Assembly (NCBI GenBank): GCA_031264185.1
Contig: JAISEL010000021.1
Location: 1-64,000 of the forward strand
Direction: 5' to 3'
From: Deltaproteobacteria bacterium
GTDB lineage: Bacteria > Desulfobacterota > Desulfarculia > Adiutricales > Adiutricaceae
Length of the DNA stretch: 64,000 bases
The notes below the pieces were generated by a model. That model saw nothing but the letters and a program-made list of their open reading frames with translations, was not told where the DNA came from and made no database searches. Both the position numbers and the translations under genes were made by a program. This document shows, one piece after another, positions 3,419 through 16,980 of the stretch. Within the stretch, counting starts at the first letter, position 1. The number at the start of each line of letters is the position of its first letter.

Positions 3419-4684
3419 TGTAAAAAAATAACTTTACACAGTTAGGGGAGGAATGTATAGTTCCATTCACCGTGAAATTTTGCACGCTTTACCTTAATTT
3501 TTTCAATTTCTTCATCGGAAACCTTTATTCCTATTGGGTACTCATTAAGATCAAGATCACACTTAACAGCCAGGCCGGAATTTGTTTTCGTCGAACCAAT
3601 CAAATTGACAACAACTTCGTGACTAACCAGAGGTCTGCCACGCCAATTCATCGTTATATGTGAAAAAAAACAGTGTTCAATTTTAGTCCATTTACTTGTG
3701 CCTGCGGGAAAATGACAAACACTAATACATAAATTAGACTCTTTTGCAAATTTTGACAGCTCCGCCTTCCATAATTTTCTCCTATACCCATTACTGCCTC
3801 CACAATCAGCAGAAATAAACAGACGTGCAGCGTTTGGATAAGTTTTTAACCCCATACTTATCCACCAATTTCTTATTGATTGTACTGCAAAAGTTGATAT
3901 ATCATGGTCAACACCTGTATTCACATATCCATTATTTTGAGCTATGTCATAAATTCCAAATGGAATTATTTTACCAAGATCTTTATCTATAAAATCATGG
4001 TCTTTTACTTTGATTGGGTTGCCTTTAGGTTGATATTCACACCCATTATTTTTATAATTACCAATTAATTCATGCTTCTTGCAGTCTATAGATATTACTG
4101 GCTGACCAAGCCGCTGAAAAGCTTTTGCCCTATTGTTTATAAACTCAAACTGAGCGTTCCTGTCCGGATGATCGGCTCCTTCAAGAACTTTTTTATTGGC
4201 TTGCAGGCTGTAACCTAACCGATCCAGCATTGATGCCACTGTTGAGTGACTAACCCTGAATCCCAAATTTGTAAGCTCATCAGCCAGATTTCTTAGACTT
4301 TTGCAAGTCCACAGCAGCAGAGATTCAGGGTCACCTCCGGTCGTTGACCCGACAAGCCGCTTCAGCGCTTCTAACAGTTCAGGACTGACTGCCGAAAGCT
4401 TTTTACGTCCGCCGCCGGGTTTTCTGATTTTTAGAGAATTGTTGCCGGATAAAGTTCCTTCTTTGAGTTCAACAAGTCCTTTACGGATAGCTTGAAAAGA
4501 AACCCCTGTCTCTTTCGAAATTTTGCTGCGCAGACCATATTCATTGCTCAACGCCAGAGAAGCAGCGAAAAGCCGGCGTGTTTTTTCGTTAATATGAGGT
4601 CCTAAGGCCTCGAATGCTGCTTTAAGATCTATCATGAATTCATGATAGCACAATTTTAAAACTGTGTAAAGTTATTTTCTTACA
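3419..4684 (-). mobile_element. ISAzo13-type insertion sequence, apparently complete
   Basis: Terminal inverted repeats of 25 bases with one mismatch lie at 3419-3443 and 4660-4684. Their inner part is AATAACTTTACACAGTT on both ends. They enclose a single intact transposase gene whose stop codon sits inside the left repeat. I could not see a matching target-site duplication in the immediate flanks, which may have diverged or be absent. The element lies next to other accessory DNA. Confidence 0.85.
3442..4635 (-). CDS. ISAzo13 family transposase
   Basis: DDE-type transposase that cuts and rejoins the element's ends. The N-terminal half has helix-turn-helix character (KISKETGVSFQAIRKGL and FRVSHSTVASMLDRLGY). 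The catalytic core shows the family order: Asp in VISIDCKK, Asp in LFISADCGGSNGYRR, and Glu in WTKIEHCFFSHIT. I place the start at ATG 4635 (397 residues), because the family begins close to a MIDLKAAFEAL-like segment. An in-frame TTG at 4653 would add six residues. No frame breaks are present, so the gene may be active. Confidence 0.9.
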   Translation of the reverse strand: MIDLKAAFEALGPHINEKTRRLFAASLALSNEYGLRSKISKETGVSFQAIRKGLVELKEGTLSGNNSLKIRKPGGGRKKLSAVSPELLEALKRLVGSTTGGDPESLLLWTCKSLRNLADELTNLGFRVSHSTVASMLDRLGYSLQANKKVLEGADHPDRNAQFEFINNRAKAFQRLGQPVISIDCKKHELIGNYKNNGCEYQPKGNPIKVKDHDFIDKDLGKIIPFGIYDIAQNNGYVNTGVDHDISTFAVQSIRNWWISMGLKTYPNAARLFISADCGGSNGYRRKLWKAELSKFAKESNLCISVCHFPAGTSKWTKIEHCFFSHITMNWRGRPLVSHEVVVNLIGSTKTNSGLAVKCDLDLNEYPIGIKVSDEEIEKIKVKRAKFHGEWNYTFLP

Positions 4685-5450: not shown

Positions 5451-5849
5451 ATGCCAAAAAACTTGTGGTTCTTCTTATTAATTTTGGCCGTCGTATGTCC
5501 GGTCGCCTCTACGGCCTATGGTCAGCCAGAAAAGCCGAAACTTCTGTTTTATGGCAGTGAAGAAGGCTTCTTTTGTGGCTTTGAACCTTCACAATCAGGA
5601 GACGGTCCCGGTGAAATATTGGTAAAAAGAGGGAGATTTATTTTTCGTTTATGGACAAGTTTTAGCTCAGAAAAACTATGGACTCAACTTGAGACTTTAA
5701 AACCGGATGTGCCCCTTAAATTTGATTTTATAGTCGTAAATGATTACGATGAAAGTGGTGGAGAACGTACTACATTTGTGGGCATTCGCAAATTTGAAGT
5801 GACAGGCGATCCTGTCCCCGGTTCATGCAAAAACGGCAAAATCCCCTAA
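5451..5849 (+). CDS. Secreted small protein of unknown family, paralogue 1
   Basis: A 132-residue protein with a clear Sec signal peptide: Lys near the N-terminus, a hydrophobic core (WFFLLILAVVCPVAS) and likely cleavage after TAYG. The mature part is about 107 residues. It keeps FFCGFEPSQSGDGP, a VKRG turn, DESGGER and VPGSC. The two mature cysteines, one near each end, could form a disulfide across the domain. It is a close relative of the next gene, aligning along its full length. No known domain is recognised. The spacing suggests a small beta-rich periplasmic or exported protein, which is inference only. No strong ribosome site precedes the ATG. Confidence 0.75.
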   Translation: MPKNLWFFLLILAVVCPVASTAYGQPEKPKLLFYGSEEGFFCGFEPSQSGDGPGEILVKRGRFIFRLWTSFSSEKLWTQLETLKPDVPLKFDFIVVNDYDESGGERTTFVGIRKFEVTGDPVPGSCKNGKIP

Positions 5850-6023
5850 TAATGCTGTCGCATTAGAGGCCGGACATTTCTTTTGTCTTTATACTACAGA
5901 GCCTGTGGTTAGCCTGCCTGATACTTGTCACGCGATATGTTCGGCCAACAGCCATTGACAATACAGATATCATTCAGCCATCATTTTGGTGGCTCAATAC
6001 CAAAATTTGAGGTGTATTAAATC

Positions 6024-6419
6024 ATGAAAAAATGCCTTTGGTTCCTTTTGGCTTTGGCCGCTGTAAGTTTGACTGTAAGTCCAGCCTGGTCTCAGCAGGA
6101 CGGACCGAAAACGTTATCCTCCGGAAATTCAAGCGGTATTTTTTGTGGCTATGAACCTTCAGAGTCAGGGGACAGCCCGGATAGTATTTCAGTGAAAAAG
6201 GGCCAGAAAATTTCTTATTTATCCGCCGGCATGAAGAATCAAGATGAATGGTATCTTATTCAGTCCCTAAAAATTGATGCGCCCATTACTTATGAATACG
6301 AGGTGGTAAATTATTACAATGAAAGCGGAGGAGAACGCGAAACTACTACGTTTATTACTAAATTTAAGGTCTCCGGGGAGCCGGTTCCCGGTTCTTGCCA
6401 GGGAGCCGCCAAACGATAA
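6024..6419 (+). CDS. Secreted small protein of unknown family, paralogue 2
   Basis: A 131-residue paralogue of the gene at 5451, separated by 174 bases. It has a signal peptide (MKKCLWFLLALAAVSLTV, likely cleavage after PAWS). The conserved mature motifs are IFCGYEPSESGDSP, VKKG, YNESGGERE and VPGSC. The paired cysteines and spacing match paralogue 1, while the residues between motifs have diverged widely. A GAGGTG ribosome site lies 11 bases before the ATG. Tandem duplication followed by divergence suggests selection on exposed surfaces. Function is not recognised. Confidence 0.8.
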   Translation: MKKCLWFLLALAAVSLTVSPAWSQQDGPKTLSSGNSSGIFCGYEPSESGDSPDSISVKKGQKISYLSAGMKNQDEWYLIQSLKIDAPITYEYEVVNYYNESGGERETTTFITKFKVSGEPVPGSCQGAAKR

Positions 6420-6943: not shown

Positions 6944-7582
6944 ATGAAAGTTCTGCTTGTAAACGGCAGCCCCCACGAAAAAGGCTGCACTTTTACTGCT
7001 TTAGAAGAAATAGCAGCCACCTTGACCCAGGAAGGAGTTGCAAGTCAGCTCTTCTGGCTCGGCAAAAAACCAATTTCCGGCTGCCTGGGTTGCCAGAGCT
7101 GTGTCAAGAAAGGCCGCTGCGTCATCGAAAACGATCCTGTCAACGAATTTGTGGAATTAGCCAAATCAGCCGCCGGTTTTATCTTCGGCTCACCGGTTCA
7201 TTACGCCGCCGCCAGCGGTTCCCTGACCTCATTTTTAGACAGGGTTTTCTATTCCGGCAGCAACGCCACCGGCAGTCGGACTTTTTATTTAAAGCCCGGT
7301 GCCGCCATTGTCTCCGCCCGAAGAGCCGGCACGACCGCCGCCTTTGAACAGCTTAATAAATACTTCACCATTTCCCAAATGCCCGTTGTCTCTTCGTGTT
7401 ACTGGAACAATGTCCACGGGTTTACTCCCGAAGACGTCCGAAAAGACGAGGAAGGTCTTTATGTCATGCGGGTTCTGGCCAGAAATATGGCTTATTTGTT
7501 AAAGTGCCTCAAGGGCGGCCAATCTTCAGGCGTACCTCTTCCGCCTCAGGAAGAGCGCAAAGTCACCAACTTTATCAGTTGA
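6944..7582 (+). CDS. NADPH-dependent FMN reductase / flavodoxin-fold iron-sulfur flavoprotein
   Basis: A 212-residue flavodoxin-like protein that binds FMN and transfers electrons in the cytoplasm. The phosphate loop is VLLVNGSPHEKGCTFTAL at the N-terminus. The GSPVHYAAASGSLTSFLDR segment is typical of the NADPH-dependent FMN reductase family. A cysteine cluster (GCLGCQSCVKKGRC, around residue 50) follows the compact pattern of iron-sulfur flavoproteins and may hold a [4Fe-4S] cluster. I chose ATG 6944 because AAGAAGG lies five bases upstream; an in-frame TTG at 6917 would add nine residues. A terminator follows. Exact substrate unknown. Confidence 0.85.
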   Translation: MKVLLVNGSPHEKGCTFTALEEIAATLTQEGVASQLFWLGKKPISGCLGCQSCVKKGRCVIENDPVNEFVELAKSAAGFIFGSPVHYAAASGSLTSFLDRVFYSGSNATGSRTFYLKPGAAIVSARRAGTTAAFEQLNKYFTISQMPVVSSCYWNNVHGFTPEDVRKDEEGLYVMRVLARNMAYLLKCLKGGQSSGVPLPPQEERKVTNFIS

Positions 7583-7608
7583 GATAACCGGCCAACGCCA
7601 GAACTTTT

Positions 7609-7635
7609 ACGGCGGCCAAAAGCCGCCGTTATTTT
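7609..7635 (+). terminator. Rho-independent terminator after the flavoprotein gene
   Basis: Perfect eight-base stem ACGGCGGC/GCCGCCGT with a five-base loop, followed by TATTTTAAT. It sits between convergent genes, 26 bases after the flavoprotein stop. Confidence 0.7.
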
Positions 7636-7637
7636 AA

Positions 7638-8669
7638 TCATAAGTTAATTCTGCCCAGAGACCCAAACCGTCCCAAAGAAGCTCTTCGGTGGTAAGGCAA
7701 ATTACTGGCGGCAACAAAATTGACCGCCGCCGGGGCAATTTTGAGCTTAATCTCTTTATCCACAAACACTTCCCCATCGAACTGCATAACCAGCGGATCT
7801 TCTGAACTGATACTGACTTCCCGGGCTTTAAGGTACTTGATATACTTGGGGTACTTATGGTATCGGCCACGATTGTAATTTCCGTACATACCGTAAAATT
7901 TGGCAGGTGAGCAGCTTTTCACTAGCAGGACATCCAACAGACCGTCATCTGGGGTGGCGCAGACCGCCGAGCATTTACTGTCAGAGGAGCACGGGCCATT
8001 GGCTATGTTAATGCAGCTGTAGCTGCCGGAATGACTCTCCCCGTCCACCAGAACTTCATACCTCTGATTTAATAAAGTGCTGTTGGCTATGGCAGTCAGT
8101 TGAGCCAGACAAATTTGGAAGCGGTTAAAAGCCCGGCCCAGCATTGGGGGCAGAAAACAGTTTATATTTTTAAAGCGTTCGGCGAATTTATTTACCCGGT
8201 AGGTGACGTATGATTCCAAACCTATGGTACAAAAATTCAATGCATAGACCGAGCCGCATAAAATGGCGTCAGTCATAATAACCTGGGAGGTAGCCTGAAG
8301 CTCAATGTCTCTGAAGAGCTGATTTTTACCGTCTCCGAAAGCCCGGATGAAACCGGCGTACTGACCTAAGGGCACCGAGGCCAGCTCAGTATCTTTCAGA
8401 TCAATAATAGCATTGAGGCAATCAAACAGAATAGAGTCTCCGCCAACTGCGTATATTCTGATTATTGTTTCAGGACATTCGTCCTTAAAACGCCTGATGG
8501 TGGCTAAGGCATCCCGTGGAAAGCGCGAAATATGGAAATAAGGATCCGGCAGTCCGATTTTTAAAAATACTCCTTCGGTATTGCTGATAAATTTGTCAAT
8601 ATCTACCCCGGCCTTGAGCAGATCCTGGCTGATGATAAAAATATGCTTTTTGGAATGGAGAGAGTTCAT
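7638..8669 (-). CDS. Diacylglycerol kinase-like / YegS-type lipid kinase family protein, with altered signature
   Basis: A 343-residue protein with the DAG-kinase catalytic fold. The first 100 residues end in IYAVGGDSILFDCLNAI. The C-terminal part carries NIANGP, DDGLLDVLLV, and the QFDGE...IKLKIAPAAVNFVA segment that closes the family's beta domain. In active members the first motif is GGDGT; here it reads GGDSI, losing the second glycine and the threonine that contact ATP. The rest of the fold looks intact, and there is no frame break. It may be an inactive or re-specialised homologue. No close partner gene: it converges on the flavoprotein gene and stands alone. Confidence 0.75.
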   Translation of the reverse strand: MNSLHSKKHIFIISQDLLKAGVDIDKFISNTEGVFLKIGLPDPYFHISRFPRDALATIRRFKDECPETIIRIYAVGGDSILFDCLNAIIDLKDTELASVPLGQYAGFIRAFGDGKNQLFRDIELQATSQVIMTDAILCGSVYALNFCTIGLESYVTYRVNKFAERFKNINCFLPPMLGRAFNRFQICLAQLTAIANSTLLNQRYEVLVDGESHSGSYSCINIANGPCSSDSKCSAVCATPDDGLLDVLLVKSCSPAKFYGMYGNYNRGRYHKYPKYIKYLKAREVSISSEDPLVMQFDGEVFVDKEIKLKIAPAAVNFVAASNLPYHRRASLGRFGSLGRINL

Positions 8670-15253: not shown

Positions 15254-16980
15254 ATGAAAAAAACAACAGTGAATGTAAAAAAACAGAAAAGACTTCCCGG
15301 AACTCGCCAAAAATTACAGGAGAACCATAATTTCTGAAGATCGAATTTATGTCGACAGGACACCCTACATCTACAAAATGTCAACGGAATTGGATGTCTG
15401 CTGTTTATTCCTTCCAGACCCAGACGCTTCGGGAAAACCCTGTTGCTGGACACTGTCAGTGAGTTATTTCTAGGTCACCGGCATCTTTTTGAAAATCTCT
15501 GGATAGGCCGGGAGACCGGTTATTATTTCCGGCCCCATCCGGTCATTCGTCTGTCCGTTAACTACGCCGTGGCCGACAGCCAGAACAACTAAAAAACTAC
15601 ATCATTGGGGATATCCTGGAAGCGGCTGAATCCATGGAAGTGACTATCACCAAAACTTAATACGACAGCATTTTAGTGAAACTTCTGAAAAAGCTCTCCA
15701 GGAAGCACGGCGCAGGAGCGGCAGTCCTGATTGACGAGTATGACGCCCCGGTGCCAGGCATATTGACCGCCTGGACTTGGCTCAGGCCAACAGCGAAGTC
15801 CTCCATGGGCTTTATACGGCCCTTAAGGTATCCTAAGAATACTTTCGTTTCGTCTTTGTGACCGGCATAACCGGATTCGTCATGACCGCCCTGAATTCCG
15901 GCCCCAACAATTTTAAGGACATCTCCCTTTCACCGGAATACGGCGGGGTTTGCGGCTTTACTGTTTCAGAATTCGACCGTTATTTTGGCAACAGGATGGA
16001 GGACCTGCTTCAGAATTTAATAGACATGGAATATTTTTCGTCAGACAAGAGGCAAGACGATCAAAATAAATCTAATACTGGCCTGGTACGACGGCTATAA
16101 TTGGCTGGGGCCGGAGAGGGTTCTGAATCCGGACGCGCTAGTGAACCTTTTTGCCGAGAAAAGTTTCTCCGACTAATTGGATTCAGAGCGGCCGCCAATC
16201 ATACCTGACGATGATGATATCCGGACCAGACCCCAGGATTTTCTGGGTCCCCAGGCGGCCGTTTATCTTTCCTCAAATCTCAGAAAAGTCGATCTCCATC
16301 ATCCGGAACCTTTACGGTTCTTTTCCATTCGGCTATCTGACCATTGATACAATAATCTTCACCCAGTTGAAATCCCAAACTCCTGACGGTGAGCCTGTAA
16401 AATATACCAGCTGCACTTTCAAGTTTCCGAACATCGAAGTGGCGGATGGCTGTAGTAATTTATTGAAGACAACTTTAGGCGAATCGAAGTACTAGGCGCT
16501 TGCCGGCCGGACTTCAGTTTTTTTGGACGCTGCGGACAGCCGGGATTCCGTAGCTGCGGCCGAGCGGTTCGCTAATGTGCTGTCCGCTGTTACTTTCCGC
16601 CAGCATACTCCTGATGAGTCGTTTTATCACGTCATCCTTCAAGGCTGCCTGGTTTCAGGCGGGCTTAAAGTGCTGGCTGAACTGGCCGGGGCCATGGGAC
16701 GCTCGGACATCATCGCCGAACGTCCCGTATAGAGATGTCTGATAATTGAGAGCAAATACCGGAAAAAAGAAGAGGGCCAGACTGAATCCGACCTGAAAAA
16801 AAAGCCGGCCAAAGCTTCAAGAGAAGCCTTAAAGCAGATAGTTAAAAATGACTGCGCCGGACCGATCAGGGGCTGGGTCAAATATAGATCACCGGACTTT
16901 CTTTGGCTGTGTACGACCAAAAAGATGTCAGACTTGATTTTACGACCGAAGATCTCATGAAGCCCCGGCCGATGCGGTGA
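15254..16980 (+). pseudogene. Broken AAA-ATPase-like / PD-(D/E)XK nuclease family gene
   Basis: An almost full-length but multiply disrupted member of the AAA-ATPase_like plus PDDEXK_9 family, common in gut anaerobes. A good ribosome site (GGAGGT, 15245-15250) precedes ATG 15254. Across all three plus frames I can read family landmarks in order: YVDRTPYIYKM; RPRRFGKTLLLDTVSELF (P-loop); VLIDEYDAPV (Walker B); FVFVTGITGF; the sensor-like SPEYGGVCGFT; WYDGYNWLG; ESFYHVILQGCLVSGG; IIESKY (nuclease core); ALKQIVKNDCAGP; and AVYDQKDVRLDFTTEDLMKP before TGA 16978-16980. Several frameshifts and stops lie between them. The parental protein would have about 570 residues. It cannot be translated as one protein. 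Confidence 0.85.

Follow-up and report, generated by a model that had tools for sequence, protein, structure and literature searches.

The window analysed here is the whole stretch of 64,000 nucleotides at the start of contig JAISEL010000021.1 (assembly GCA_031264185.1, Adiutricaceae). It contains two adjacent genes for small exported proteins, separated by a spacer of 174 bp. Major features of the pair and of the segment that holds it are listed in Table 1. BLASTP aligns the two products over 127 residues at 48% identity (E=4e-41), and their mature parts align with a score of 261, where the best of 2000 shuffles reached 52. Both begin with a signal peptide that is recognizable from its K/R n-region, hydrophobic core and small-x-small motif before Q. 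Scans for promoters and terminators gave results at chance level only. A sequence-only reading of this DNA had described a tandem pair of homologous small genes, with a signal peptide on each product, two cysteines that could pair and a set of shared motifs (FCG-aromatic-EPS, SGD-x-P, VK-basic-G, ESGGER and VPGSC). The alignment scores establish the homology of the pair, and all of the quoted motifs are found in it. The signal peptides are evident from the sequence and are carried by all intact full-length relatives as well, and the two cysteines prove to be a pair conserved across the family described below.

Table 1. Coordinates of the gene pair, its predicted protein features and the duplicated segment (window positions unless a contig is named).
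Feature	Position	Strand	Basis or remark
Duplicated segment holding both genes, 1.28 kb; second copy on contig C83	5294..6576	+	blastn, alignment
Gene 1, 132 aa, exported OB-fold protein (predicted)	5451..5849	+	ORF, sequence
Gene 1 predicted signal peptide, residues 1-24, cut before Q25	5451..5522	+	sequence; hydrophobic window 3.42
Gene 1 Cys42, strand b1, invariant column	5574..5576	+	family alignment
Gene 1 Cys126, C-terminal tail, conserved in 98%	5826..5828	+	family alignment
Gene 2, 131 aa, exported OB-fold protein (predicted)	6024..6419	+	ORF, AF2
Gene 2 predicted signal peptide, residues 1-23	6024..6092	+	sequence
Gene 2 Cys41, strand b1	6144..6146	+	family alignment, AF2
Gene 2 loop L12 (PSESGDSPD), conserved acidic-Ser-Gly loop	6156..6182	+	AF2, conservation
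Gene 2 loop L45 (NESGG), conserved acidic-Ser-Gly loop	6318..6332	+	AF2, conservation
Gene 2 Cys125, C-terminal tail	6396..6398	+	family alignment
98-bp MITE-like element	G000:C83:25574-25671 (L053 about 7575-7672)		between two family genes

The tandem duplication proposed earlier is real, and the pair has itself been copied: the segment in the window and its counterpart on contig C83 of the same genome share 78-80% DNA identity (blastn, alignment). The real unit is larger than the gene pair, namely a recurring 1.28-kb segment and a family of over 50 domains. The first gene of the C83 copy is intact, and its product is 75% identical to that of gene 1 in the window. The second is broken by an in-frame stop and a frameshift. 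The two C83 genes are separated by a 98-bp element that has no equivalent in the window copy; it has imperfect inverted ends of 27 bp (24/27 matching), and the genome contains 40 or more copies of it that are 96-100% identical. Judged by these sequence features, it is a recently active MITE-like element. Ends related to it also occur in the window at 87-117 and 2714-2820. About 0.8 kb upstream of the pair, on the minus strand, lies an intact-looking transposase gene with a full-length DDE_Tnp_ISAZ013 match (3442-4653). A further stretch of 280 bp, outside the duplicated pair, is 73% identical between the window (15327-15599) and C83 (L053 12252-12529).

Family membership and taxonomic range

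A profile built from the window pair recovered two more copies in the window genome, one intact and one broken, and relatives in 16 further genomes. Members were taken after one profile-building round that followed the fetching of their loci, all with a whole-protein E below 1e-22, and the resulting family alignment (A2) holds 56 domains from 17 genomes. Its sole invariant column is Cys41. Cys125 is conserved in 98% of the domains; the only exception is L055, where an in-frame stop lies upstream of the open frame. None of the 56 members has a significant match to any family in Pfam, and matches to PHROGs are at chance level, none of them convincing. No significant match to the two window proteins was found in NCBIfam or among the anti-phage defence profiles of PADLOC, and a PDB sequence search with the family profile gave no match. 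The family had been called unrecognised from its sequence; a strong match to a known family, which would have spoken against this, was looked for in all five collections and is absent.

Of 37 genomes from the bacterial family to which the window belongs, 17 carry the genes, which are thus missing from more than half of them. No member was found in 26 other genomes of the same class. An even sample of 395 genomes from the phylum yielded four positives, all from the window's own bacterial family, and none among the 388 others sampled; sensitivity in this sample is lower because only the best ten candidates per genome were scored. Plasmids and phages gave no match to the family. The profile searches ranged over the phylum, and coverage beyond it came from pattern scans of genome_contigs. 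Patterns from the two-sequence alignment matched nothing in genome_contigs or IMG/VR; those from a seven-row alignment matched five named loci in genome_contigs and again nothing in IMG/VR. The five belong to gut "Deltaproteobacteria" MAGs (Gx485_bin194, 207, 40 and 203, and Roe453_bin26), and some of the MAGs so named come from termites (PMC11707648). Adiutricaceae, in the class Desulfarculia, is a gut-associated family of Desulfobacterota from termites and millipedes (PMC9137090, PMC10823672). As far as sampled, the protein family appears to be confined to this one, mostly termite-gut, bacterial family. The sequence-only reading had expected homologues only in related gut bacteria, each with a signal peptide, and for intact full-length members the profile search agrees: none of them has lost it.

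Gene fusion, arrays and selection

Four genomes of genus g7 (G024, G027, G030 and G033) encode two-domain proteins, with up to five such genes in a row (G024:C405 and G030:C363). In a maximum-likelihood tree of the domains, which has few columns and many weak forks, all first domains group together (support 98/94), as do all second domains in a clade of their own (100/96). A further g7 genome, G012, has separate, adjacent single-domain genes on one contig (L050 3866-5659). Two of these fall in the first-domain clade and one in the second-domain clade, and each has its own signal peptide. The family genes of G012 and G024 are probably at the same, orthologous locus, unfused in the one and fused in the other, because a DNA polymerase IV-type (IMS) gene adjoins both sets (L050 6722-8398 and L043 91-1776); in both genomes it is transcribed away from the family genes. 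The simplest reading of the g7 history is that a tandem pair like that of the window was fused and then amplified. Fission in G012 would be the alternative, and is not the simplest reading. Every stage is represented in the family, from single genes and tandem pairs through a copied pair to two-domain genes and an array of five. The array of G030 is adjoined by a gene on the minus strand for a glycine-rich, repetitive protein of 577 amino acids with GGxxGxIxGG repeats (L042 7192-8922), which has no Pfam match. A relative of this protein is encoded near the family gene of G036 (L060 7603-8292).

The dN/dS of gene 1 between the window segment and the C83 segment is 0.38 (bootstrap 0.23-0.64), and pairs of g7 array genes range from 0.27 to 0.49. 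These values represent moderate purifying selection, not demonstrated positive selection. The pair had been described as fast-diverging; this and "diverged strongly" are fair descriptions of the rate, but the pairwise dN/dS does not support positive selection or an arms race. The genes might alternatively be decaying and weakly selected, without present function, as relics of a duplicated segment. One of the four copies in the window genome is broken, and truncated or interrupted copies occur in G007, G025 and G033. A dN/dS clearly under 1, the retention of cysteines and motifs in intact copies and the arrays of intact genes in g7 all argue against decay, which we consider improbable.

Predicted fold, export and conserved loops

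AlphaFold2 predicts the structure of the gene 2 protein with a pLDDT of 91.9 at full length and 92.6 for the mature chain. The predicted elements are strands 29-44, 54-59 and 62-68, a helix at 73-81 and strands 86-99 and 104-116. This order, b1-b2-b3-helix-b4-b5, is that of the OB fold, with a predicted five-stranded barrel. The structural neighbours in the PDB are OB domains of LysRS, SSB, ExoVII and telomere proteins, which Foldseek matches with a probability of 1.0, a TM to query of 0.4-0.59 and an E of about 1e-3; the viral library is rich in SSBs. TM-scores of 0.5-0.6 between a model and solved structures indicate fold, not function. The fold is a known one and the family is new: an OB barrel is predicted, yet the family is without a database entry. 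The two genes belong to a real, previously undescribed, lineage-restricted family of exported OB-fold domains.

Signal peptides, present in all intact full-length members, mostly end in small-x-small before Q, D or E. No lipobox with Cys at +1 was seen at the predicted cut in the intact sequences inspected by eye. Almost without exception, each domain of the mature chains contains two conserved cysteines, and a few chains have one extra, although some of these counts include signal-peptide cysteines where the automatic cut was placed too early. Since the cysteines are conserved as a pair and the proteins are exported, a disulphide probably links b1 to the C-terminal tail. The window genome has a DsbA-like gene that scores just over the family cut-off.

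The polar residues that are most strongly conserved cluster in two loops, L12 (SESGD-x-PD) and L45 (D/N-E-S-G-G). Both loops flank the classical ligand face of the OB fold. Because the polar residues sit there, beside the usual ligand face, we infer that the domains bind a ligand. Positions 47, 50 and 100 are acidic in 80, 72 and 82%, respectively, of the domains that are single or come first. The second domains of two-domain proteins have lost these acidic residues, so that not every member can depend on acidic loops.

The nearest solved folds, SSB and the anticodon-binding OB domain of LysRS, might point to periplasmic nucleic-acid-binding proteins, involved for example in DNA uptake or with extracellular DNA. 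These OB domains are cytoplasmic and bind nucleic acids, whereas the window family is exported, and at 6-17% identity there is no sequence relation between them. The mature proteins are acidic in all intact members (pI 4.1-5.2, median 4.4), as are the conserved loops; in comparison, KPN03535, an exported OB-fold protein proposed as a DNA binder, is basic, with a pI of 9.4 (PMC2954213). A nucleic-acid ligand is, in our judgement, highly unlikely. Because domains and conserved loops are acidic, a cationic ligand would be favored instead.

Candidate functions and comparison with known exported OB families

The proteins are very probably exported OB-fold binding domains. The fuller reading, that they are lineage-specific, Sec-exported, acidic, disulphide-locked OB domains acting as stand-alone binding modules, has about an even chance of being correct. 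Each protein would be a Sec-exported acidic OB domain, probably locked by one disulphide from strand b1 to the C-terminal tail, and would act alone, as a binding module without enzymatic activity, either in the periplasm or extracellularly. Copy number and domain number would change as genes are duplicated in tandem and fused. The ligand face would be flanked by L12 and L45, and the ligand may be cationic: an antimicrobial peptide, a polyamine, a metal ion or a basic protein surface. Antimicrobial peptides are bound by SipA, a periplasmic BOF protein with an OB fold (PMC6370654). By analogy, a periplasmic or extracellular peptide or cation binder that works like SipA, yet is not a BOF protein, is the concrete reading that we prefer, though tentatively and as less likely than not.

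At the copies examined there are no conserved or secretion-related neighbours, and the neighbours differ between genomes; the exceptions are ABC-transporter genes common to some g10 orthologues and the DNA polymerase IV-type gene of G012 and G024. No partner gene or operon hinting at function lies beside the copies examined. This bears on another explanation, in which the OB domain would act outside the cell and recognize glycans or proteins of the termite, of gut flagellates or of neighbouring bacteria, different copies covering different targets. Restriction to a gut-associated bacterial family and strongly diverged, lineage-specific arrays are consistent with such a role, and secreted bacterial OB-folds include some that serve as the binding subunits of toxins, as discussed in PMC2954213. 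However, with dN/dS at 0.27-0.49, positive selection is demonstrated for no pair, a toxin partner or secretion gene is found beside none of the copies examined, and there is no sign of passage through the outer membrane. The sequence-only reading had taken tandem duplication, secretion and uneven conservation as typical of surface, toxin-like or host-interaction proteins; a predicted plain OB barrel, purifying selection and varying neighbours do not demonstrate such a role. We regard a role directed at host or protist as possible though unlikely. That duplication, fusion and array growth build lineage-specific repertoires of exported OB recognition domains for termite, flagellate or competitor molecules is a rather speculative proposal. 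Should their ligands be molecules of the host, of protists or of competitors, the proteins would give practical access to the way in which uncultured symbionts of the termite gut interact with their surroundings. If they are ordinary binders in the periplasm, they still make up a new, testable protein family with a confidently predicted fold. The OB fold itself is common; the family, as far as sampled, is private to an insect-gut-linked bacterial family.

The window family resembles several known OB proteins that are exported. BOF proteins (PF04076; YgiW, YdeI and V. cholerae SipA) are small exported OB-folds with a signal peptide, as in the window family. The tRNA_anti-like family (PF12869) comprises exported or membrane-anchored OB-folds. 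Both occur in the same genomes as the window family. With fold class and export shared, the window family might consist of divergent members of one or the other. Membership of BOF was rejected: 0/56 members exceed the Pfam gathering score, and in an hhalign comparison with the BOF proteins of these genomes the alignment spans 47 columns, chiefly the signal peptide and its short flank. The BOF sequences examined are without the cysteine pair and the FCGY/SESGD and ESGG blocks, and those genomes in which BOF was found encode it as a distinct protein, in one copy each. Membership of tRNA_anti-like was likewise rejected, with 0/56 Pfam matches and an hhalign probability of 8%. Descent from either family is very unlikely. 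Another parallel is the KPN03535-type OB lipoprotein (PDB 3f1z; PMC2954213), like the window family an orphan exported OB-fold of narrow taxonomic range. KPN03535 is a lipoprotein with extra N-terminal helices and a basic pI (PMC2954213). The window family, in contrast, has no lipobox at the cut, is acidic and possesses a conserved cysteine pair.
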